From positions 1 to 34,519 of the IMG/VR virus record IMGVR_UViG_3300045996_000858: a stretch of DNA of 34,519 nucleotides; one strand, 5' to 3'. The notes beneath the pieces were generated by a model. That model worked only from the letters and a program-made list of their open reading frames with translations, did no database searches and had not been told where the DNA came from. This DNA comes from a virus. Positions 4,639-22,465 of this stretch are shown piece after piece; the stretch's first letter is position 1; each line of letters opens with the position of its first letter. Both the position numbers and the translations under genes were made by a program.

Positions 4639-5319
4639 TTATGCGCCTTTGTTGTAATGCGCTAGAACCGTAGAAGCGTCGAGAACGACGTTATAGATTG
4701 CGATTTCGTCCAGTTTGCCGTTGAAGTAATAACCGCCCCCGAAGTCGCCGTACCTTCCGAAGTCCAAATCCCGCGCGCCCGTTACGCCGCTCAAGTCGTT
4801 TCCGTCCGCGTCCGCCGCAAGGCTCCCGTCCACGTAGAGTTTGACGTAACCCGTAGACGAAATCGTTGCGACGATATGGTGTTTAACGGAGACGGTAGGG
4901 GGAGTAATCGATACCGTAGCGCCAACCGAGTTGACGCGGACTTGAAACGTCCCCGACTCAATCAAGATGTTGAAGATTGAGTTAGTCGGTTGAGCGTTCA
5001 CGAATAACGCTGTGGCGTTGTCGTTGGATAGATACCAAAACTCAATACTCATCTCCGAATCGACTTGGAAAGACGAAACGCTAACGTACCCCGCCCCGCC
5101 CAAACTTAGGCAGGTATCCGCGTCTCCGTTAATCAGTCCCGTTGAGCCTTGAGTATACGTCCCCCCGTACGTTCCGTCGTACGTTGCGGTTTCGTCTTCC
5201 GCCGTCGTTCCGCTGCTCTCCCCGAGCCTCCAATAGCCGCGCAACCCCGACGTCGCCATTATCATTTGGCGGTACGTCTGACTTAGCGCGTCTCCGAAGA
5301 ATGTCATTGGTATTAGCAT
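4639..5319 (-). CDS. LamG/concanavalin-like carbohydrate-binding tail protein (226 aa)
   Basis: The start overlaps the stop of the giant fibre gene (TAATG). Residues 25-226 have the form of a LamG-type jelly roll: GLRGYWRLGESSGTTAEDET at the beginning, MSIEFWYLSND, HHIVATISSTGYVKLYVDGSL in the middle, and YFNGKLDEIAIYNVVLDASTVLAHYN at the end. This family binds sugars or proteins and is widespread in phage receptor-binding and virion surface proteins. With the fibre gene it probably forms the adsorption apparatus. An alternative ATG lies at the fifth codon. Confidence 0.85.
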   Translation of the reverse strand: MLIPMTFFGDALSQTYRQMIMATSGLRGYWRLGESSGTTAEDETATYDGTYGGTYTQGSTGLINGDADTCLSLGGAGYVSVSSFQVDSEMSIEFWYLSNDNATALFVNAQPTNSIFNILIESGTFQVRVNSVGATVSITPPTVSVKHHIVATISSTGYVKLYVDGSLAADADGNDLSGVTGARDLDFGRYGDFGGGYYFNGKLDEIAIYNVVLDASTVLAHYNKGA

Positions 5320-8300
5320 TAAGCAAACGCCTTCTGACAGACGCCGAATAGGGACGTACCGTCCGAGATAAAGGTGAGGATGTCTACCGCGTTCGCGGCA
5401 GTCGAGAGCGTCGGGTCCGTCCCGCCCGGGAACTTGTAGGCGGAGTTAAACGTCAACGTACGGCTCCCCGTCGCGTCCTGCTTAACGATGAGGATATACG
5501 TTGCTCCGTCAACGAGATTAGTAGGAGCGGCGAGCGTACGGTTGCCCCCGAGGGTAACGGTAGCCTTCGCGCCGCTATTCATGTTCCAGTTAATCGTGGA
5601 GCCGTCGGTAAGGGTTTGGGCCGTAGCGGCGTACTGCGGGGCCGTTATGACGCCGTCCTTATCGATTTTCGTTAGCGTCGTCCCGCCGCTCGTCTGCGCG
5701 TCGAGGAAGTCGCCCGTTTGTGACGCGCGCTGTTTGAGTAGCAGAGTCTTCGTACTATGCGGAACGAACGTTGTATCGGCCCCGAGCGTTACCACCAACG
5801 CCGCGTACTTCGTCGTATTCGTCGGGACGTAGTTGATACCGACGAAGCCGTTTTGGTAGATGCTCATCAACGTTTCGGTTGGCGTGAGCATGCCGTCTAC
5901 GCGCATGACGAAGTTCCAGTAGACTTTGTCGTCTGCCGTATTATCCGGCGTTACGTTGAGTAGCGCCTTGTTGTACTGGTTTCCGTGAGAACCGAACGCG
6001 GTGAAGTAGGCGCTAGAGTACGGAGACGGCTGAAACTGTAGCGTACCGCTGGGGTACCCCGCTCCCACGCCCGTGGCATCGGAGACGCGGGTAATAATCA
6101 TCTCGTTCTCGAAATTGTTCTGTCCCGCTTTGAAGTAAATAGCGTCGGCGTTGAAGTCGATACGTCCCCCGCTTCCCGCCCAACTGCCGGCCCAGTACCG
6201 CGTATAACCGCTAGACTCCGTCAAAACGATATCTAGGTAGTCGCCAGCGCCCGCGCCGCGACGGGGGATAATCTGATAGAACTTGTTACCCGTACTTAAG
6301 TCGGTAATGTACGACGTCGGTACGCCGGTGAATCCCGTCGTAAGCGTTTGCTTGTATTCGATATGTCCGCCGTCCGAGACGACGACGTTACCCGCCGTTA
6401 CGGTATCGGTTGTCTTATCGTAGACGAAACCAGCGTCGCCGTTGAATGCGCCCGCGTCGTTGAATTGGACTTGCGTAGTAGAGCCGCCCGGGGTACCCGA
6501 GAAACCGGAGTATCCACTAAAACCGCTTACTCCGCTAAATCCAGAGTAGCCGCTTGCGCCCGCAGCGCCCATTGGGCCGCCCGCTCCGCTGAACCCTGAA
6601 TATCCGCTTCGTCCAGATATTCCGCTGGTCCCGGAGAATCCAGAGTAGCCGCTAAAGCCGCTTACCCCACTAAATCCAGAGTAACCGCTTGCGCCTTGTA
6701 CCCCGTTACTTCCCGAGAAGCCGCTATATCCGCTTCGGCCCGAGAAACCGCTATAGCCACTAAAGCCGCTTACCCCGCTAAAACCAGAGTAGCCGCTTGC
6801 GCCTTGTACTCCGTTACTTCCGGAGAAGCCGCTATAGCCGCTTACTCCAGTCGCCCCAGAGAATCCGCTATAGCCGCTTCGGCCGCTGGTCCCGCTGAAA
6901 CCAGAGTACCCGCTTATTCCGCTGGCTCCGCTGAACCCAGAGTATCCGCTTATTCCAGACGCGCCAGAGAAGCCGCTATATCCGCTCCGTCCAGATACCC
7001 CGCTAGTCCCCGAGAACCCGCTGTACCCGCTTATTCCGCTGGTCCCCGAGAAGCCGCTATAGCCGCTAAAGCCGCTGGTACCATTCGCGCCCGAGAAACC
7101 AGAATAGCCGCTTGTCCCCGTTAGCAGCGAAGCCGCTACCCACGTCGCGTTACCGCTCGCGTCCGAGCGCAATACCTTGTCTACGCCTGGACTGCCGCCC
7201 GTAATCTTGAGCGTCGCGTTGTTTTCGAGCGAGAGGTTTCCGTAGACGGAGCCGCCCGCCTGGTCAATCGCGCCGATACCCTCTGCGGGGCCGTACGCGG
7301 GGCGGCAGTTGACGAGCATTAGGCGAGCAATCCAGAGGTTGACGCCGTCGATTCCCGACGCCGTAGCGCCCGTAATCGTAAACCTAATACCCTTACAATA
7401 GTCGTAGTTGGCGCTCCCCGAGGACTTCACCAAACCGTCTTGATAGAACGTTGAGCAAATGAACGGGAGCGAGTCGCTAACCCCCGTCCGTTGGATACAG
7501 TAATGCCAAGTCCCCGCGTTGTCTTTGTATTCGAGCGTCCAATCCGTGAGCGTCCCCGTACTGCCGCCGAGGCGATGCTGTAGCAGGACGAAGCGTAGGA
7601 CGTCCGTCATGTCGATGTTGCTGGACGACTCTACCGTTAGCGTATACGGGAGGTTGGCAATCGGGATGAGGATGTTGCTTGACAAGTCGTTGTCAAACAG
7701 ATTGTCCGCCGACAGCGTACCCGCAGACGTCGTAGACGTAATCGTGTATTGGCTCTTTCGGTTCGCTAGATAGAGTCTGTCCGCCATCCCCGTTACCGCG
7801 AATAGTCCGTTAATAGCAGAGCTGCGGGTATTCTGGTCCAGCAGTTTAATCGACGTCGGCGCGGTATCGATGGCGCTGCTCCAAGACGGAGTAGCCGTCC
7901 CGAGATTGACGGTACCCGAAAGGTTGCTTGTTCCCGTCGCCGCAAGCGCGGACGTCCCAACCGTTCCCGCCGCGATAGTCCCCGTCGTCAACGTATCCGT
8001 CGTCTTGCTGTAGGTAAGCCCCGCGTCTCCCGCTACGGCCCCGCTGTCGTTGAAGAATACTTGGGTATTGGATCCCGTTACGGTAAACCCAGCGCCAGAG
8101 TAGCCGCTAAAGCCGCTGGTACCAGCCGCGCCCGAAAATCCAGAATAGCCGCTCCGCCCCGATGTTCCAGAGAATCCGCTTGTTCCAGAAATTCCGCTGG
8201 TCCCCGAGAATCCGCTGTAGCCGCTTATCCCTTGGATACCCTGTACGCCTTGAGCGCCCGAGAATCCGCTGTAGCCGCTAAAGCCGCTGGTGCCTATTCC

Positions 8301-9833
8301 CGAATAACCGCTCCGTCCAGACGCGCCCGATACCCCGCTAGTACCCGAGAAACCGCTTACTCCGCTGGTCCCGCTGGTCCCCGAGAATCCAGAATAACCG
8401 CTCCGTCCAGACGCGCCAGAAATTCCGCTTGTTCCAGAGAAGCCGCTATATCCGCTAGTCCCCGTCAACAACGAAGGATCTACCCACGATGCGTTGCCGC
8501 TCGCGTCCGAGCGGAGGACTTTATCGACGCCAGGACTGCCGCCCGTAAGTTTGAAACCCGTAGCCGTTATGTTGCCAACGGAGAAGATGCCGCCGCTGTA
8601 AACGCGGAATTGCCAGAAGTCGTTAAGGACTCCGCCCGTCGTCGCGGAGAAGGTAACGGTAATGCCGTAGTTGAGCGTTTGGGCCGCGCCCGTAATAGAT
8701 ACGCCGCTCGCTTGAACGTTCGTACCGTTCGGCCCCAAACCCCAAGTAAAGGTGTTGGGACTTCCGGTCCCGTCAATCTTCACCCAAATGACGCGGCTCG
8801 CGTCCATCTCGTTGTACCCCGATACGTCAACCGTCATGTTGACGGTACCCGTCTTACTCGCGTAAACGGTATTCGGCGTAACGGTATCCGCCGTCGCGCT
8901 GCTGCCGCTGGTCCCGTCGCTCGCGGTATAGAACGGCGTCGGCGAAACGTAGACGTTACCGTAGAGGTCCAGCCGCTTCGTTATCATCCGTCCGGCGACG
9001 CCGTTAAACTTCAGCGGCTCCCATGCGCCGCCCGCTCCCTGATAATCGGTGTAAAACCAATTGAAGATGTCTTGAGCGGTATCGGGGTTGTCGCTCATGA
9101 AAAACGTATAGCGCGTGTTGTCGCTCGCGTACTCCGTAACGCGAATCTGCGCGGTGTCGCTCGTTTTCACGAAGCGAATAAGCGAAGTGCTACCAACGCC
9201 CGGATTGCTCAAGTCGAGTTGCGTACCCGTTATCGCTCCGCCCGCGACGATTGTACTAACCGTAGTAAGGGAACCCGTAGCCAACGTATCCGTTGTCTTG
9301 TTGTAGGTTAGCCCCGCGTCTCCCGCTACCGCGCCGCCGTCGTTGAAGAAGACTTGGGTATTGCTTCCCGTTACCGTAAACCCCGCGCCCGAGAAACCAG
9401 AATAGCCGCTCCGCCCCGACGCGCCGCTCGCTCCGCTGTATCCGCTAAAACCGCTTACCCCACTAAAACCGCTGTATCCGCTGCGCCCGCTCGCGCCCGA
9501 GAAACCGCTGTAACCGCTGGTCCCCTGTACTGCGGAAGCCGCTACCCACGTAGCATTTCCGCTCGCGTCGGAGCGGAGGATCTTATCGACGCCAGGACTG
9601 CCGCCCGTAAACTGTAGGGAGTCCGCTACGAGGCCGCCCGTAAAGGTGGAAGCGTTGATTCCGCCGCTGCCGTCCCGCTTGACGAGGGAGTCCGCGACGG
9701 GGTTAACCGCCGCGCTCAAGATGAAGTCGGCGATGAAGCGGAAGTTGTCGTTGAGTCCGACGCCGCCCGGTTGGGACGGTTCGGGACTGAGGACGTAGAT
9801 ACCGCTGTTGTTGTAGTTGATTAACTCTGACAT
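5319..9833 (-). CDS. Collagen-like tail fibre (1504 aa)
   Basis: A giant fibre with three collagen-like stretches of Gly-x-Ser-like triplets (GYSGFSG, GTSGISG, GRSGYSG) at about residues 103-153, 454-580 and 903-1118. Between them are repeated modules: GGSPGVDKVLRSDASGNATW (three copies, near 75, 430 and 880) and a TQVFFND...GDAGLTYxKTTDTL module (three copies, each just after a collagen stretch). The C-terminus (AQTLTDGSTINWNMNSGAKATVTLGGNRTL onward, to about 1504) is a beta fold often seen at phage fibre tips. Triplets trimerise to make the shaft; the interspersed domains probably bind receptor. The N-terminus (MSELINYNNSGIYVLSPE) would attach to the tail. Confidence 0.9.
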   Translation of the reverse strand: MSELINYNNSGIYVLSPEPSQPGGVGLNDNFRFIADFILSAAVNPVADSLVKRDGSGGINASTFTGGLVADSLQFTGGSPGVDKILRSDASGNATWVAASAVQGTSGYSGFSGASGRSGYSGFSGVSGFSGYSGASGASGRSGYSGFSGAGFTVTGSNTQVFFNDGGAVAGDAGLTYNKTTDTLATGSLTTVSTIVAGGAITGTQLDLSNPGVGSTSLIRFVKTSDTAQIRVTEYASDNTRYTFFMSDNPDTAQDIFNWFYTDYQGAGGAWEPLKFNGVAGRMITKRLDLYGNVYVSPTPFYTASDGTSGSSATADTVTPNTVYASKTGTVNMTVDVSGYNEMDASRVIWVKIDGTGSPNTFTWGLGPNGTNVQASGVSITGAAQTLNYGITVTFSATTGGVLNDFWQFRVYSGGIFSVGNITATGFKLTGGSPGVDKVLRSDASGNASWVDPSLLTGTSGYSGFSGTSGISGASGRSGYSGFSGTSGTSGVSGFSGTSGVSGASGRSGYSGIGTSGFSGYSGFSGAQGVQGIQGISGYSGFSGTSGISGTSGFSGTSGRSGYSGFSGAAGTSGFSGYSGAGFTVTGSNTQVFFNDSGAVAGDAGLTYSKTTDTLTTGTIAAGTVGTSALAATGTSNLSGTVNLGTATPSWSSAIDTAPTSIKLLDQNTRSSAINGLFAVTGMADRLYLANRKSQYTITSTTSAGTLSADNLFDNDLSSNILIPIANLPYTLTVESSSNIDMTDVLRFVLLQHRLGGSTGTLTDWTLEYKDNAGTWHYCIQRTGVSDSLPFICSTFYQDGLVKSSGSANYDYCKGIRFTITGATASGIDGVNLWIARLMLVNCRPAYGPAEGIGAIDQAGGSVYGNLSLENNATLKITGGSPGVDKVLRSDASGNATWVAASLLTGTSGYSGFSGANGTSGFSGYSGFSGTSGISGYSGFSGTSGVSGRSGYSGFSGASGISGYSGFSGASGISGYSGFSGTSGRSGYSGFSGATGVSGYSGFSGSNGVQGASGYSGFSGVSGFSGYSGFSGRSGYSGFSGSNGVQGASGYSGFSGVSGFSGYSGFSGTSGISGRSGYSGFSGAGGPMGAAGASGYSGFSGVSGFSGYSGFSGTPGGSTTQVQFNDAGAFNGDAGFVYDKTTDTVTAGNVVVSDGGHIEYKQTLTTGFTGVPTSYITDLSTGNKFYQIIPRRGAGAGDYLDIVLTESSGYTRYWAGSWAGSGGRIDFNADAIYFKAGQNNFENEMIITRVSDATGVGAGYPSGTLQFQPSPYSSAYFTAFGSHGNQYNKALLNVTPDNTADDKVYWNFVMRVDGMLTPTETLMSIYQNGFVGINYVPTNTTKYAALVVTLGADTTFVPHSTKTLLLKQRASQTGDFLDAQTSGGTTLTKIDKDGVITAPQYAATAQTLTDGSTINWNMNSGAKATVTLGGNRTLAAPTNLVDGATYILIVKQDATGSRTLTFNSAYKFPGGTDPTLSTAANAVDILTFISDGTSLFGVCQKAFA
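6480..7125 (-). repeat. Collagen-like coding repeat, third and longest block
   Basis: About 645 bp of degenerate 9- to 18-bp units coding for GxSG triplets such as SGYSGFSG. Units are nearly identical at protein level but vary at synonymous positions, so the block is old and not a recent slippage product. One 54-residue portion containing GSNGVQGASGYSG occurs twice in a row. Confidence 0.85.
8090..8470 (-). repeat. Collagen-like coding repeat, second block
   Basis: About 380 bp of GxSG-coding units within the fibre gene, with a short GAQGVQGIQGI insertion near the middle that resembles classic collagen-like triplets. Confidence 0.85.
9375..9525 (-). repeat. Collagen-like coding repeat, first block
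   Basis: About 150 bp of GxSG-coding units near the fibre N-terminus, followed by the first TQVFFND module. Confidence 0.8.
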
Positions 9834-16153: not shown

Positions 16154-16174
16154 CGCCGTAACCCCTACTAAACG

Positions 16175-16213
16175 AGAGAAGGCCCAGGAATCGCTCCTGG
16201 GCCTTCTCTTTTG
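16175..16213 (+). terminator. Rightward intrinsic terminator
   Basis: Perfect 15-bp stem (16175-16189 with 16195-16209), five-base loop, then UUUUG. It also lies just beyond the convergent end of the integrase gene. Confidence 0.85.
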
Positions 16214-16241: not shown

Positions 16242-18035
16242 CTACCGCCGCCTACCCTTCGCCCTCTTCGCGGCTTGGGCGGCTTCGTACGCCTTGCCGC
16301 TCGCGGCGTACCATCGCTCCAACTCCGCCGCCGTCCGCTTCGGCTTCGTCAACGGGGCCGCTTGGCCGAAGTTTTCGCCGAAGATGTTATACGAGAGCGT
16401 CGCCAACGGACTACCGCTCGCGGCGTTCCGACGGGCGCGGTAGGCGAAGCGGACTTGGAACGCTTCGCCGATGAACAACTCAACCGTCGCCGTCCCTTCA
16501 ATCGTAAACGGCAACGTAGACGTCCGCTCCGCCGTCATGACGATACGCTTGACGATGAGACGAAGGGTAGCCGCCATCTCCTCCCGCGCGGCGTACGACG
16601 GCTCATCGGATAGAACTTGCTCTAGGCGCTCAATTAACTTCGTCGCGCGCCCCTTGTCGGAGACGAGCGCCCGCGCCTTCGATGCGTTGTACTCCCGCTC
16701 CAACCGCTCCCGCTTGGACTCAAGAGCGGCGGCGGCTTTCGCCAACGTCTTAACGTTGCCGCCTTCCGCCATCGCCTCCCCAATCTCCGCGAGCCGCGCG
16801 TCTACTTCCGCAATCTGCGCCCGCAGATTATCGCCGTCCGCTTTGACTTCGCGCGGGGCGAAATGCTCCGCATGGTACTTCAATAGCGCGTTGAACATGA
16901 CATGTTCGAAGACGGCAAGGTTGACGTACGTTCGCGGCTTCGTCCCCAATGTCTCCCCGCTGTTGTTAACGAGCCGCCTATCTCCGCTCGCGTTCTGGTG
17001 GATAGTCCAACTCTCCCCTTCGTCGTCAACGAGCAAGCCGTTGAAGAGGTTTACCCAAGCGGCCTTCGGGCCCCGCGTACCCTTGAACGTCTCGGGAGAG
17101 TCGTTGCGGCGTTGCGCGAGTACCGCGTTGGCTTCGTCCCATTGCTTGACGGAGACGACAGGGGGGTAATACCCCTCAACCGTACCGACGACGACGCCGC
17201 CCTTACGCTGGACCAACTCCCCCAGTACCGCGCGCCCGCTGACGATTTGGTGGACGTAGGTTTTGCTCCATCGTCCGCTCGTACCGAACGAAGCAACCTT
17301 CTCGCGGTTGAGCAAGCGAGCGACAGCGCCGATACCGTAGCCGTCCGTAATCAACGCGAAGATGCGGCGGACGATTGCCGCGTACTCCGCGACGACGACA
17401 ACCTTACCGTCGCGGACTTTGAGCCAACGCGGCGTCCAGTTGCGGACGACTTCGCCGCGAGCCGCGCGCTCCCGCGTCTGCTCCCAACTCGCGCGCATCC
17501 GCATACCCTTAATGCGGCTCTCGTCATTCGCTCGCGCCATGACGGAGATACTGATAATCAATTCGCTGAACTCCAACGGCTTGTCGCCGTCGTTGCTGTA
17601 CTCGCGCCCGTCGGACAAGGTAACGATGCGAACGCCGTTGTTGATGATCCCGAGAAACTGTTGGAGCGCCAACGTAATCTCCGAACGCGAGAGGCGGTCC
17701 AGAGATTCGACAATCAAGACGCTCCCTTTGGGTATCGCGCCCGACTCAATCAATCGGAGCAACCGTCCCAACGCGCCGCTCGCGGCGTTCTTGCCGCGAT
17801 ACGCGCTAACCCCTTCGTCGCGGTAACTGTCGTCAATCTTCAAGCCGCGCGCTTTCGCCCATTCGGCGGACGCCGCCAACTGTCGGCGCGTTGAGTCGCC
17901 TTCGCTCTGTTGCGGCGTAGAGAAGCGGAGATACGAGATACAGAGGGGGGCGGCTCCGCCGTCCTGGCCCCGCTGCCGTTTGCCGCCGCCGTTCGCTCCG
18001 CGAAGGGATTTGAGTTGGACATTCATGCGTAACAT
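16242..18035 (-). CDS. int: Large serine recombinase (phage integrase), 597 aa
   Basis: The N-terminal resolvase domain begins ISYLRFSTPQQ (catalytic Ser near residue 39) and includes ESLDRLSRSE (about 110-119). The recombinase domain (about 215-330) follows, then a long coiled coil (AQIAEVDARLAEIGEAMA; ALESKRERLEREY; about 400-455) and a C-terminal basic tail ending KRAKGRRR. This enzyme joins attP to attB and needs a separate directionality factor for excision. It is odd in having no zinc-ribbon cysteines: the only Cys is near the N-terminus, and the usual ribbon position reads NLFNGLLVDDEGESWTI. Starts at 18035 or 18026 are both possible; a start at 18110 would run through the attP-like palindrome that lies just upstream. 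Confidence 0.93.
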   Translation of the reverse strand: MLRMNVQLKSLRGANGGGKRQRGQDGGAAPLCISYLRFSTPQQSEGDSTRRQLAASAEWAKARGLKIDDSYRDEGVSAYRGKNAASGALGRLLRLIESGAIPKGSVLIVESLDRLSRSEITLALQQFLGIINNGVRIVTLSDGREYSNDGDKPLEFSELIISISVMARANDESRIKGMRMRASWEQTRERAARGEVVRNWTPRWLKVRDGKVVVVAEYAAIVRRIFALITDGYGIGAVARLLNREKVASFGTSGRWSKTYVHQIVSGRAVLGELVQRKGGVVVGTVEGYYPPVVSVKQWDEANAVLAQRRNDSPETFKGTRGPKAAWVNLFNGLLVDDEGESWTIHQNASGDRRLVNNSGETLGTKPRTYVNLAVFEHVMFNALLKYHAEHFAPREVKADGDNLRAQIAEVDARLAEIGEAMAEGGNVKTLAKAAAALESKRERLEREYNASKARALVSDKGRATKLIERLEQVLSDEPSYAAREEMAATLRLIVKRIVMTAERTSTLPFTIEGTATVELFIGEAFQVRFAYRARRNAASGSPLATLSYNIFGENFGQAAPLTKPKRTAAELERWYAASGKAYEAAQAAKRAKGRRR

Positions 18036-18062
18036 CTTATTTGGAGCCAGTTTACCGGGCAA

Positions 18063-18107
18063 GTGTTGAATCGGAAAATATGGCTCAACGATTTGCCGAA
18101 TCAACAC
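18063..18107. other. attP: Predicted attP site (45-bp imperfect palindrome)
   Basis: Arms of 17 bases, 18063-18079 and 18091-18107, match at 15 of 17 positions when one is reverse-complemented. The 11-base centre is ATGGCTCAACG. It begins 28 bp upstream of the integrase ATG at 18035. Large serine integrases use attP sites of about 45-50 bp, with imperfect inverted arms around a short crossover, typically beside the int gene; all three criteria are met. The site lies inside the ligase-fragment reading frame. Confidence 0.75.
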
Positions 18108-18626
18108 CATCCGACGGAGTCCGCCAAACCCCTTAAAAACAAGCGTCTTTTCAGCGGTTGGCTCAAGTTAAAGACGCATCTCCCTACCCTGGATTGCGTC
18201 GTTACGGCGGCGGAGTTGGGACATGGGAAGCGGCGGGGCGTCCTCTCGGACTTGACGTTTGCCGTATGGGCGGACGACGGCTCAACGCTCCTCAACATCG
18301 GCAAAGCCTACAGCGGATTAACGGACGCGGAGATTGCGGACATGACGGGGCGGCTACGCTCCCTCGCGGTAGCCGACGACGGGCGGCGGTACGTCGTCCG
18401 CCCCGAGATAGTCGTTGAGATTGCCTTTGACCAAATCCAAAAGAGCGCCCGCCATGACAGCGGGTACGCGCTCCGCTTCCCGAGAATCAAAACCATCCGC
18501 AACGACAAGCCGCCGTCCGAGGCCGATACGCTGGCGCGCGTCCGAGAGATTTACGGGAGCGACGCCAATACCGCGCGCGAAGTCGAAACGGACGCGGAGC
18601 CGAACGAGCCTACCCTTTTCGATTGA
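18063..18626 (+). CDS. 5'-truncated ATP-dependent DNA ligase: motif V and C-terminal OB domain (187 codons)
   Basis: From codon 33 the protein is clearly the C-terminal part of a bacterial ATP-dependent DNA ligase: WLKLK (motif V), LPTLDCVVTAAELGHGKRRGVLSDLTFAV, GKAYSGLTDAEI, RPEIVVEIAFDQIQKSARHDSGYALRFPRI and DKPPSEADTL. The nucleotidyltransferase part with the catalytic Lys (KxDG) is absent. The frame is open from 18033, has only GTG (18063) or TTG starts, no ribosome-binding site at a proper distance, and its first Met is codon 94, inside the domain. It therefore looks like the 3' end of a gene meant to be joined to something upstream. Codons 1-32 cover the attP and a spacer. It is divergent to int, the geometry needed for fusion with a host gene on integration. 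Confidence 0.85.
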   Translation: MLNRKIWLNDLPNQHHPTESAKPLKNKRLFSGWLKLKTHLPTLDCVVTAAELGHGKRRGVLSDLTFAVWADDGSTLLNIGKAYSGLTDAEIADMTGRLRSLAVADDGRRYVVRPEIVVEIAFDQIQKSARHDSGYALRFPRIKTIRNDKPPSEADTLARVREIYGSDANTAREVETDAEPNEPTLFD

Positions 18627-18679
18627 GCGCGCGCGACAGAGGGAAACTGCGGCGGAATGACGAATAGAACATTAGTCAA

Positions 18680-18797
18680 CTGATTGTGCTTGGAACGGCA
18701 TACAGCCCCGTAAAGCCCCGTAGGACAATGACGGACCAGCATACGGGGGCGGCAACCGAAACAGGACCGCTTGCGGGTTCGAATCCCGCCAGTCAGA
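18680..18797 (+). other. tRNA-like element (118 nt), possibly degenerate
   Basis: A T-arm is exact: GCGGG-TTCGAAT-CCCGC (18773-18789), followed by CAGTCAG, which pairs fully with CTGATTG at 18680-18686 as a 7-bp acceptor stem (one G-U). Next come TG and a D-arm-like segment containing AACGGCATAC, then CCCCG (18706-18710) and CGGGG (18744-18748) as an anticodon stem, and GCGG/CCGC as a long variable arm. The anticodon loop would be 33 nt, far too long, and no CCA is encoded. It includes a tandem copy of AGCCCCGTA. A broken tRNA, a tRNA-derived attachment remnant and a tRNA mimic are all possible. Confidence 0.45.
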
Positions 18798-18805
18798 TTC
18801 CCGCG

Positions 18806-18835
18806 CAAAAGAAAGAGCCGCGATTGTCTCGCGGC
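18806..18835 (-). terminator. Leftward intrinsic terminator
   Basis: On the minus strand a 7-bp stem GCCGCGA/TCGCGGC (18817-18835) is followed by a pyrimidine-rich run with CUUUCUUUU (18806-18816). It follows the end of the small membrane-protein gene by about 35 bp. Confidence 0.65.
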
Positions 18836-18868
18836 CCATGTCGGCAGGGGGGGTAATCGTTCGCGGCG

Positions 18869-19177
18869 CTATCGGCTCTCTCGCGTCGTCGCCTCCGCCT
18901 TCTCTTTCTCTTCCTCCGCCTTCCGCCGCGCTTCGATTGCCTTTAACCGCGCGGCGAAGTCATCCCCCATACTCTTCCGCGCGTCGCCGCTCGCTTTGCG
19001 GAACGCCGCGCCCATGTCGTCAACTCCCTTCTGAAGCGCCGTCCGCAACTCCCATTTCAGATACTCGCGCCCCGCGACGAAGCCGACGCCGCCGAACAAC
19101 GCCGCGACGACGACGACGGCAACGAGCCAACGGCGGACGCTCATACGCTCCAACAACCAACCTTCAACGTTACTCAT
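18869..19177 (-). CDS. Membrane-anchored coiled-coil protein (102 aa)
   Basis: The ATG at 19177 follows GGGAG by eight bases; longer frames lack this. After a short N-terminus comes one membrane span (WLVAVVVVAALFGGVGFVAG, about residues 15-34), then a charged helical region ending in a Lys/Glu/Ala coiled coil (RLKAIEARRKAEEEKEKAEAT). The topology is a cytoplasmic or periplasmic coil on a membrane anchor. It is transcribed alone, with a terminator after it and a divergent gene on the other side. It may be a superinfection-exclusion or lysis-timing factor; this is only by analogy. Confidence 0.75.
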   Translation of the reverse strand: MSNVEGWLLERMSVRRWLVAVVVVAALFGGVGFVAGREYLKWELRTALQKGVDDMGAAFRKASGDARKSMGDDFAARLKAIEARRKAEEEKEKAEATTRESR

Positions 19178-19843: not shown

Positions 19844-20088
19844 CCCTTCCGCTTCCGCGAACAACCGCAACCCTTACTTGATGTTTCGCCAACGGCGGCG
19901 GACTTCGCTACGGCTTTCGGTTTCTCCGCAGCGACTTTGAATTTACCTTTGGGACATTCGCCGCTAATCGCGTGTTCGTTGATACTGCGGTTACTAAACG
20001 GACAGGCACAGAAGCCGTTACACTTCGGCAACCCTTCCGCCGCGCGGCAGTCCAAGCAAATCGGTAGATGCATCAACGTATTGCTCAT
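19840..20088 (-). CDS. Small cysteine-rich protein (82 aa)
   Basis: The start overlaps the stop of the large Cys-rich protein. Cysteines come in the pattern CLDCRAAEGLPKCNGFCACPFSN, ECPKG and a terminal CGCSRKRKG, so a metal-binding or disulfide-rich domain is likely. It is the last gene of the late transcript. It may be a small tail-tip component or a partner of its Cys-rich neighbour. Confidence 0.7.
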   Translation of the reverse strand: MSNTLMHLPICLDCRAAEGLPKCNGFCACPFSNRSINEHAISGECPKGKFKVAAEKPKAVAKSAAVGETSSKGCGCSRKRKG

Positions 20089-21188
20089 TAGCAGGGGACT
20101 CCCGTAATCGTTCCGTTACCGAAGGTATACCACGTCTCAAAGCCATCAAAGTCGGCGTAAGTAATCTCCCACGGCTTACAGCAGTTTTGCCATTCGACGG
20201 AAGTTACCGCAGTCAAGTCTATGAAGAAATCTCCGAGGAGCGGGTCCGACGAAATATGGTACAGAGAGAACGACGCCCCGCCGCCGCCCAAGACTAACTC
20301 TATTTGCACCGTCGTCGTTTGACTAATGTCGGGTTCGCAAGCGTCGCAATCATGATCCTCTTCGGTACCGAAGCATTTCTTAACTGTCATAAACGATATC
20401 TCCCCGACGTACGCGCACGGCGCGCCGGGCTTTTGCGTCAACGTTACCGTCCCGCCGCCGCCGAATAACTTGCTTACCGTCCACGGCTCTCCTGTCTGCG
20501 TTTGACACTTCGTCGTCGGCTCAAGGTTGAACGTTAACGTTATGCTTGACGGGGTACGCCCCGGCGTTACGCCGCAATTAAAGCAATCGTCCTCGCTGGA
20601 GCATTCGCAGTTACAACAGTCGGTAGGCGTCTCGGAAGGCGGGGACGGCGTGACTCCCCCGCCGTCGCAACCGTCGCAATCGAAAACGTCGTCGCAACAG
20701 TTACAGGGCGGGCCGCACGATTCGTACATCTCTGCATTGCATTCGTCTATGAGCCAGGTATCGGTTGGCCTAGTCGTCGATTCGCAACCGATGCCGCCGG
20801 AGACTGGCGTTGACCAGGACTCTGTATCGCAGTCATAAGACGAAGTCCAAAGCTTCGTACACTTCTTCGCGGACGCGCAACAACAGCAGTCATCCGGAAT
20901 CCCGGTGGGTAGTACCGGCGGAGTCGGCTCGGTTATCCCGCTACTGCAATCGCTGTTTTCCGTACAACATTTGTTGAGCGGGACGTGAATCTTGTACTGA
21001 CAGTTAGTAGCCCCTTCCGCGTCTTTCGTCCACCCGGTTAGTACGTCTCCCGGTGCCAGACAAACGTTGTTATCCGGCGTTGGCCCCGCCCACGTCTCCG
21101 TCGAGCAGGTATAGGTGCAGAAATACTCTCGGTAACAGAGCTTGCCAGTATTACAGCAGCATGAACATGGGAACGTTTCGGTTGGCAT
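20088..21188 (-). CDS. Large cysteine-rich tail-tip protein (366 aa)
   Basis: I start it at the ATG at 21188, which overlaps the stop of the previous gene. About 40 of 366 residues are Cys, arranged in clusters such as PCSCCCNTG, DDCCCCASA, PPCNCCDDV and DCCNCECSS, joined by Pro/Thr linkers (TEPTPPVLPTG; TPSPPSETPT). The N-terminal part has two diverged repeats containing CSTETWAGP and CDTESWSTP. The C-terminal 130 residues form a beta domain (ITLTFNLEPTTKC to the end). Position after the tape measure and tail-tip genes suggests a distal tail or host-binding protein, stabilised by disulfides or metal. Confidence 0.75.
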   Translation of the reverse strand: MPTETFPCSCCCNTGKLCYREYFCTYTCSTETWAGPTPDNNVCLAPGDVLTGWTKDAEGATNCQYKIHVPLNKCCTENSDCSSGITEPTPPVLPTGIPDDCCCCASAKKCTKLWTSSYDCDTESWSTPVSGGIGCESTTRPTDTWLIDECNAEMYESCGPPCNCCDDVFDCDGCDGGGVTPSPPSETPTDCCNCECSSEDDCFNCGVTPGRTPSSITLTFNLEPTTKCQTQTGEPWTVSKLFGGGGTVTLTQKPGAPCAYVGEISFMTVKKCFGTEEDHDCDACEPDISQTTTVQIELVLGGGGASFSLYHISSDPLLGDFFIDLTAVTSVEWQNCCKPWEITYADFDGFETWYTFGNGTITGVPC

Positions 21189-22465
21189 TAGGACGAACAC
21201 CCCGCTATTACCTTAACAGTCTCTTTCGTTACTGATATCGTCCCGTCGCCGTTACAAACTACGTTCGTAACGACTTCCTTTTCCTCGTAACAGACTTCTA
21301 CTTTCAAACCGCAGAGGGAGCCGCCGATGATGCGCGTATAGTCGGTATCCTGTAACAGCAATTCGACTTCTAACTTGCTGGTACCCGAGTTGTAGACTGC
21401 GCGGAAGCCGTCTTTGAATTCGATTTCTTTTATTTTGTTACTCTCTACGACGCCCTCCGCGTTACAGCCCCCGCCCTTTACGGCGGGGACGGACGCGGTA
21501 ACGGTGACGTTCGGAGTCGCGACGCTCGGGCAAGTCCCTTGCGTTACGCTGCTGCTCCCGCCCGCCCCTTCGAACGCAACCGGCCAACTGTCCGCGACGG
21601 CGTACGGTTGGGTAGCGGGGTCAAAGATTACCCGCTTCGCGAGCGTATCCCCGGAAGCGCCGTACCAAGTGAACCGCATCCCCGCCCAATCGACTTTACC
21701 GTAACTCTGAATGTACGTCGTATCCGCCTCGTTGTCGCAAGCGGGGTTGCCGTCGGAGTTGAGGTTGAAATCGTACCAGTTGAATTCCAACCGCGATAAA
21801 TCGTGTACGACGTTGGACGCTTCGGGGGAGGCGCAATGGTAGCCGAACGAAATGTATTTGTAGGGGTTAACTTGGTAATGGTTGTCGTCGTTGTCCGACA
21901 GGAACGGTACGACGTCGTCAACGTCGATGCGGTACCCGAGCGGCGGCGCGTCGTCGAATTGCGTAGGCGTCCCCGTATAAACGGTTAGCGTCGTCGTCGT
22001 ATCGACGTTGGAGCCGTCCGCGTCGCAAGGGTTAACCTGAAACATCCGGCGGCAGTTGTAGACGGACGTAACTTTCCCGTAGCGGATTAAGCCGCCGCCC
22101 AAAGAGAACGTCCAACCCATGACTACGGCGTTGCCGCCCGCCGTATCGCGAATCGGCATGCGCGACAGTATCACCCTGTCGCCGACGCTAGGCGTACCCT
22201 CGTTAATCTCGTAAGCGGGGTTGTCCGCGAGCGTACCGATTAACTGCCCGTCGCTCCACGTCCCGTCCGCGTTCCGCGTTACTTGCTTCCAAGCAACCTT
22301 GAACTTGTCGGTTGAGTCTACGTCGGTGACTTCGGCGAAGAGGGTAGGGAGTTGATAGACGTTGGGGTTGACGCCGCCGCCCAACGACTGCGCCTCGCTC
22401 GCGCGTACCGCCTTGCCGATGCGCTTGACGTCCCGCTCCCCGAAACCGAATACGTTTTCTGCCAT
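21188..22465 (-). CDS. Tail-tip protein (425 aa)
   Basis: A soluble, beta-rich protein. It starts MAENVFGFGERDVKRIGKAV, a short basic helix, then has a domain with LPTLFAEVTDVDSTDKFKVAW and GDRVILSRMP that resembles barrel-type phage tail modules, a long middle domain with acidic loops, and a C-terminus including VVTNVVCNGDGTISVTKETV. The gene follows the 300-aa tail protein with an AAGGGG ribosome-binding site. Position, third after the tape measure, suggests a baseplate hub or tip component. The family is not certain. Confidence 0.7.
   Translation of the reverse strand: MAENVFGFGERDVKRIGKAVRASEAQSLGGGVNPNVYQLPTLFAEVTDVDSTDKFKVAWKQVTRNADGTWSDGQLIGTLADNPAYEINEGTPSVGDRVILSRMPIRDTAGGNAVVMGWTFSLGGGLIRYGKVTSVYNCRRMFQVNPCDADGSNVDTTTTLTVYTGTPTQFDDAPPLGYRIDVDDVVPFLSDNDDNHYQVNPYKYISFGYHCASPEASNVVHDLSRLEFNWYDFNLNSDGNPACDNEADTTYIQSYGKVDWAGMRFTWYGASGDTLAKRVIFDPATQPYAVADSWPVAFEGAGGSSSVTQGTCPSVATPNVTVTASVPAVKGGGCNAEGVVESNKIKEIEFKDGFRAVYNSGTSKLEVELLLQDTDYTRIIGGSLCGLKVEVCYEEKEVVTNVVCNGDGTISVTKETVKVIAGCSS

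Follow-up and report, generated by a model that had tools for sequence, protein, structure and literature searches.

The integrase of the E. coli prophage e14 is a tyrosine enzyme. The available part of the e14 report terms this integrase putative and places the prophage in icd, where 165 bp (54 residues) are replaced with two conservative changes (PMC11148124). The available text on integrases that act at the 5' end of dusA likewise describes a conserved gene as target and element ends that may restore its expression, and the locus studied here would resemble them in both (PMC4482086). Closer by its recombinase is phage JC1, for which the accessible portion of the report gives a large serine recombinase (LSR) with attP 41 bp upstream of it, integration into the 5' end of rimO, an attP/attB overlap of 18 bp that differ at 1 bp, and a phage ATG that keeps rimO in frame (PMC9144972).

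We resolved a second case among the LSR relatives from the two ends of a prophage record, G461 (L173:500-620 and L093:100-200), integrated in the first codons of a gene that, by its sequence features, probably encodes an arsC-like reductase. METVI is replaced in frame by MSDERVVNLV, so that the host METVIYGIKNC... becomes MSDERVVNLVYGIKNC... (in the fuller reading of the junction, host METVIYGIKNCDTMKK... becomes MSDERVVNLVYGIKNCDTMKK...). The reconstructed attP has perfect 16-bp arms, a 20-nt spacer and an even dyad of 52 bp, and the core shared with attB, 16/17 bp, lies inside that spacer. In both LSR relatives, as far as the available JC1 text goes, the att core falls on conserved-motif codons near the start of a conserved gene whose frame is preserved by the phage, the phage start codon sits outside the shared core, and it is the 5' end of the target gene, not the 3' end, that is substituted.

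The DNA that we analysed, hereafter the window, is the whole of IMG/VR virus record IMGVR_UViG_3300045996_000858 (34,519 bases, GC 0.564), in which the 3' part of an ATP-dependent DNA ligase gene lies beside an LSR gene. As in e14, we propose insertion in a coding sequence with in-frame replacement of its 3' end, the displaced 3' segment being kept on the other side; the e14 replacement is nearly identical to the displaced end, whereas the window carries a 156-residue domain about 60% identical to its known relatives, and it further differs by an extra linker and by a serine recombinase beside the fragment (PMC11148124, available part). With JC1 the window shares a related LSR (39% over the compared stretch) with attP just upstream, and JC1 has its attB in a coding gene kept in frame by phage sequence; JC1 differs in that the first codons are replaced and, in the accessible portion of the report, no target-protein domain is described at attP (PMC9144972). 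The G461 prophage is similar in its LSR (42-44% identical over the conserved part), its long dyad attP and its kept frame, and its shared core falls on the codons of a conserved motif, YGIKNC, a parallel to the motif V codons discussed below; the differences are its 5' replacement, its longer core, its even dyad and the lack of target-gene sequence beyond attP on the far side.

The integrase region and the ligase domain beside it

The window encodes an HK97-type packaging and head module, with terminase large subunit (TerL), portal and major head protein (PHROG E-values 2e-132, 4e-88 and 7e-21, respectively), and a tape-measure protein. Phage-type genes flank the integrase region on both sides, with terminase, head and tail genes on the right and, on the left, an HNH gene and a long gene for a collagen-like fibre, so that the region is internal to the phage and not a prophage edge. 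The 1504-residue protein with many SGYSGFSG-type collagen-like repeats (5319-9833, minus strand) is probably the tail fibre. In single-protein scans of IMG/VR neither the LSR nor TerL nor the ligase fragment had a close relative; the nearest relative found, record G460 (locus L092), is 56% identical in TerL, 44% in portal and 43% in head protein, its LSR is 47% identical over the first half, and it has no match to the ligase profile. This record (L092, L172, L174, L175) starts exactly at the LSR start codon, which suggests a provirus trimmed at the att site. A Cys-rich protein of the window with CCC motifs and without a Pfam match (20088-21200, minus strand) has a homologue near the LSR of the same record (40% over 116 aa).

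The features on which the argument turns are the following; the motif labels I, IV and V are those of the ligase literature.

16242-18026, minus strand: YbcK-like large serine recombinase, probable integrase (PF00239 1.3e-19, PF07508 1.2e-13)
17419-17426, minus strand: third copy of TGGCTCAA, inside the LSR gene (sequence match)
18063-18107, no strand: probable attP, an imperfect 45-bp dyad with arms 18063-18079 and 18091-18107 and an 11-nt spacer ATGGCTCAACG (dyad, and position upstream of the LSR as in relatives)
18063-18626, plus strand: whole open frame with a GTG start, 187 aa, comprising dyad, linker and OB domain
18081-18088, plus strand: TGGCTCAA in the middle of the dyad, read as W-L-N in the ligase frame, a candidate for the shared core (sequence match)
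18087-18155, plus strand: 23-codon linker NDLPNQHHPTESAKPLKNKRLFS between attP core and motif V, including the right attP arm (GC 0.49)
18156-18623, plus strand: C-terminal OB domain of a ligase, containing motif V (WLKLK) and a conserved stretch, RFPRI..IRNDKP (PF04679 1.5e-14)
18159-18166, plus strand: second TGGCTCAA, codons W-L-K of motif V (TGG CTC AAG of WLKLK; sequence match)
18279-18287, plus strand: GGCTCAACG, a 9-mer that repeats the attP centre out of frame, taken as chance-level control (sequence match)

The recombinase has the N-terminal resolvase domain, the catalytic Ser motif and the Recombinase domain of the LSR class, its motif SYLRFS aligning with four phage LSRs at 37-40% identity. 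Its start lies at 18026 or 18035; a 622-aa frame reaching 18110 would cross attP. A profile scan of IMG/VR gave 218 relatives, of which the best 80 were examined and are 35-47% identical to it. The catalytic motif was located in 75 of these 80 loci and lies at most 120 nt from the record or locus start in 36 of the 75, the pattern that a provirus edge directly upstream of the LSR would produce. A divergent rimO was recognised by sequence motif in 18 of the same 80 (one Pfam-confirmed), and the divergent ORFs adjoining nine LSR relatives gave no Pfam match, the rimO control being matched. Between the 3' end of the window LSR and a convergent plus-strand ORF stands a strong hairpin followed by a T-rich stretch (16172-16212), a probable terminator.

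The frame divergent from the LSR, open through the dyad, encodes a ligase OB domain. The PF04679 match covers residues 57 to 149 at 54.6 bits (cut-off 27.5), the alignment with solved archaeal ligases begins at about residue 32, just before WLKLK, and both motif V and the C-terminal motif are kept. AlphaFold gives block pLDDT values of 94-98 over residues 41-160 and 45-59 over residues 1-30, and the OB fold is found by Foldseek in archaeal ligases at 2e-15 and in human ligases too. The product is a linker and an OB domain without the adenylation domain (motifs I-IV), and not a complete ATP-dependent DNA ligase. Among cellular proteins it comes closest to ligases of the Chloroflexota, at 58-69% identity (69% being a partial match, full-length ligases 58-65%); outside the Chloroflexota identity is 45-50%. 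In the nearest class, 78 of 110 genomes match at E <= 1e-8, and in 65 of the 110 exactly one match reaches E <= 1e-41. From motif V onward the phage keeps 46 of the 48 columns that are conserved at 95% or more in 36 non-redundant host ligases, the two changes (V to L and V to I) being conservative, which we take as a sign of selection for function. A tRNA-like RNA of 118 nt with a 7-bp acceptor stem and a perfect T arm lies directly 3' of this frame (18680-18797, plus strand; Rfam tRNA 20.2 bits against a cut-off of 29, missed by ARAGORN, folding z -1.65). As a second att site it was dropped, its 3' end being present in 0 of 400 Chloroflexota genomes.

The probable attP and the octamer repeat

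The dyad is centred at 18085, with 17-nt arms that match at 15 of 17 pairs, and lies 37 bp from the LSR start at 18026, against 41 bp in the available JC1 text; it is here that loci of the LSR family end. With 17-nt arms, at most 2 mismatches and a spacer of up to 20 as the criterion, the window contains three such dyads and none of 8 first-order Markov sequences contains any; the other two in the window have short loops, one of them being the hairpin at 16172-16212. The dyad is odd in length with a spacer of 11, unlike the even attP of G461 with its spacer of 20. Just as the G461 core lies inside the attP spacer, most of the spacer ATGGCTCAACG is filled by the octamer TGGCTCAA, in frame with the W-L of motif V.

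The first-pass annotation had proposed that this octamer recurs in frame at ligase motif V, 78 bp downstream. Both plus-strand copies (18081-18088 and 18159-18166) are indeed there, and the 78-bp spacing is exactly 26 codons, both copies standing in the frame of the ORF at 18063-18626. How much weight this repeat can bear is another matter. Three copies of TGGCTCAA are reached in 4 of 100 shuffles, and the 9-mer GGCTCAACG at 18082 has a second, out-of-frame copy 197 nt further on, at 18279, a match longer than the octamer and without functional reading. We imagined 67,802 17-mers from elsewhere in the window at the dyad centre and compared them with the ligase ORF: 17.5% share any 8-mer with it, 6.4% an in-frame one, and 0.20% (136) give an in-frame 8-mer within 3 codons of motif V, while an out-of-frame 9-mer match of the GGCTCAACG kind is expected in 5.2%. 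The pairing of the octamer with motif V is thus unusual (about 0.002, judged after the fact); the in-frame repeat alone is not. When the ORF was recoded with phage codon usage and the attP centre held fixed, an in-frame match near motif V arose in 40% of 100,000 trials, since CTC is the phage's favourite Leu codon. The octamer repeat is a hint, not proof.

Motif V and other candidate integration sites

An in-frame ligase 3' part that adjoins the dyad is what a gene-restoring phage would carry, and the role of the fragment is likely to be the restoration of a host ligase. That the phage integrates through its LSR into the ATP-dependent DNA-ligase gene of its host and repairs that gene by domain replacement is a proposal whose chances we consider even. 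If a ligase is restored, motif V is somewhat favoured as attB. An attB few codons into a gene would allow the LSR-side half to provide a new start; with an attB deep in the gene, at motif V, the far side must provide everything downstream, which is what the phage carries. The recognisable captured part, judged by alignment, appears to start at motif V, some database alignments extending up to twelve residues upstream (query start 20-23) through a shared P and R. The linker resembles the host loop between motifs IV and V no more than its own shuffles do (35 distinct loops, nine lengths, all p >= 0.09; gapped test, p = 0.69). The phage would then carry exactly the part that the host gene loses by a cut at motif V, an argument independent of the octamer, although the linker may have diverged instead.

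The host sequences fit this proposal less well. The expected octamer is present exactly in only 6 of 38 host ligases, most having TGGCTGAA, and known hosts match attP at motif V over the octamer only. Because motif V must encode W-L-K, host-attP identity there is limited to about 8-9 contiguous bp at most, against 16-18 in JC1 (available text) and G461. In a sliding comparison of attP with 36 host ligases, motif V came 19th of 577, 11th of 574 and 9th of 578 in-frame registers in three windows, and other stretches, among them GLTD of the OB domain and KVWTEE, which immediately precedes motif I, scored higher in at least one of the three tests; without regard to frame, the median rank of motif V fell from 3 of about 1332 with an 11-nt window to 145.5 with a 41-nt window. 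Since the hosts compared are no closer than cousins of the true host, the poor match weakens the proposal without refuting it. The crossover at host motif V that the annotation put forward is partly supported, by the dyad, placed where LSR relatives have their att site, by the well-conserved OB domain whose homology begins at motif V, and by the habits of the relatives, and is held back by the weak host match, the odd dyad and the missing lysogens. We regard it as a good and plausible, if unproven, prediction.

An alternative is a cut elsewhere in the same gene, with attB between motifs IV and V (for instance in the DPxSPYTPGRRG loop), an insert of about 10-20 residues, and the motif V octamer a coincidence of codon usage. 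Any cut after the motif IV Lys and before motif V suffices for restoration, and the scarcity of the octamer in hosts, its rate in recoded frames and the existence of a chance 9-mer match all fit such a cut. We nevertheless find it rather unlikely: nothing homologous to the loop that precedes motif V could be detected in the phage, so that the loop would be lost rather than restored, and no loop site is prominent in the sliding test, in which the motif IV register scores well but at the cost of the motif IV Lys.

No lysogen of this phage was found in the ligase genes of 65 of 110 nearest-class genomes and of 82 of 400 Chloroflexota genomes drawn from the phylum (those with a ligase at E <= 1e-40), two sets that overlap, and the insert of about 26 residues predicted before motif V was absent from these ligases; nor did the 38 natural ligases that we compared show one between motifs IV and V. 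No match to the ORF starts before residue 21 in the class genomes or residue 20 in the phylum draw, and hence no genome searched contains linker residues 8-19. The window LSR has no match at E <= 1e-15 in the 400 Chloroflexota genomes, and Recombinase-domain (PF07508) proteins occur in 40 of the 110 nearest-class genomes. No other virus with the ligase fragment emerged from single-protein and alignment scans of IMG/VR, and the ligase profile matched none of 92 phage records (80 LSR relatives, the best 80 of 218, and 12 of 80 TerL relatives). The true host may lie outside the genomes searched. In the literature, searched at its loosest through titles and the openings of abstracts, no ligase gene appeared, among the papers listed, as target of a serine recombinase or of prophage integration.

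Three kinds of candidate were rejected during this search. One contig (G079 C62) carries a ligase and an LSR 44 kb apart, with host-like genes near both ends and one OB copy; the short ligase ORFs inspected in host genomes, considered as prophage remnants, are explained by frameshifts, runs of N, the ends of contigs or a different ligase subfamily; and near motif V the two MAGs G410 and G435 have a gap and a contig start, which were considered as signs of integration and dropped as assembly gaps.

The empty searches agree with the idea that the fragment is a passenger or relic, the LSR integrating elsewhere (compare rimO and the arsC-like gene) and the OB domain stemming from an old aberrant excision or forming a stand-alone protein from the GTG at 18063. 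No ligase gene searched holds a lysogen, none of the 92 LSR or TerL relative records (for the LSR, the best 80 of 218) has the fragment, and the in-frame GTG does exist. Retention of nearly all the conserved columns would be unusual for a relic, however, a frame open through the dyad is needless for a passenger, and a scan of 17900-18900 that knows only the sigma-70 consensus found no promoter-like site from which a stand-alone protein might be expressed; we therefore judge this reading unlikely. That the attP core is the start of another host gene (ATG GCT CAA CG at 18080, M-A-Q-R), with the phage replacing the upstream region as JC1 does at rimO, is highly improbable, for despite an ATG at 18080 with a frame open across the core, a possible ribosome site (GGA, 18073-18075) and relatives that provide a start on the LSR side (for JC1, in the available text), those relatives have their start codon outside the shared core and the in-frame ligase domain would be left unexplained.

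Predicted lysogens and their meaning

Returning to integration into the ligase gene, we infer a crossover within the dyad. At attL, the N-terminal part of the host ligase, which has motifs I to IV and its own promoter, would be joined to the right half-site, the linker and the OB domain of the phage, giving a full-length ligase with an extra linker; since the right half of attP (to 18107) becomes coding, some inserted residues are unavoidable. The crossover would most likely fall on the host motif V codons (TGG CTN AAR), with an insert of about 26 residues and a predicted in-frame fusion of ligase ...PGRRGxxWL followed by NDLPNQHHPTESAKP...WLKLK; elsewhere between motifs IV and V it would give a shorter insert. 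At attR, the LSR-side half with the in-frame GTG at 18063 would be joined to the displaced host OB remnant. The complete picture, in which the host ligase is cut at catalytic motif V, its whole OB domain replaced and some 26 residues added, partly from attP, so that lysogens live on a chimeric ligase while the displaced host OB domain comes under a phage start codon, can be offered tentatively.

What is new here is a gene-restoring integration that would swap a whole domain, with motif V as attB a good prediction. In the precedents that we found, gene-sparing phages replace a few codons or a short end of their target. If our proposal is true, a whole domain of a DNA-joining enzyme is exchanged, and the phage gains a hand in the DNA repair of its host. 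It is also an example of how the phage alone may suffice to predict an attB: the domain carried points to the gene, the edge of homology to the cut, and the attP spacer to the core.
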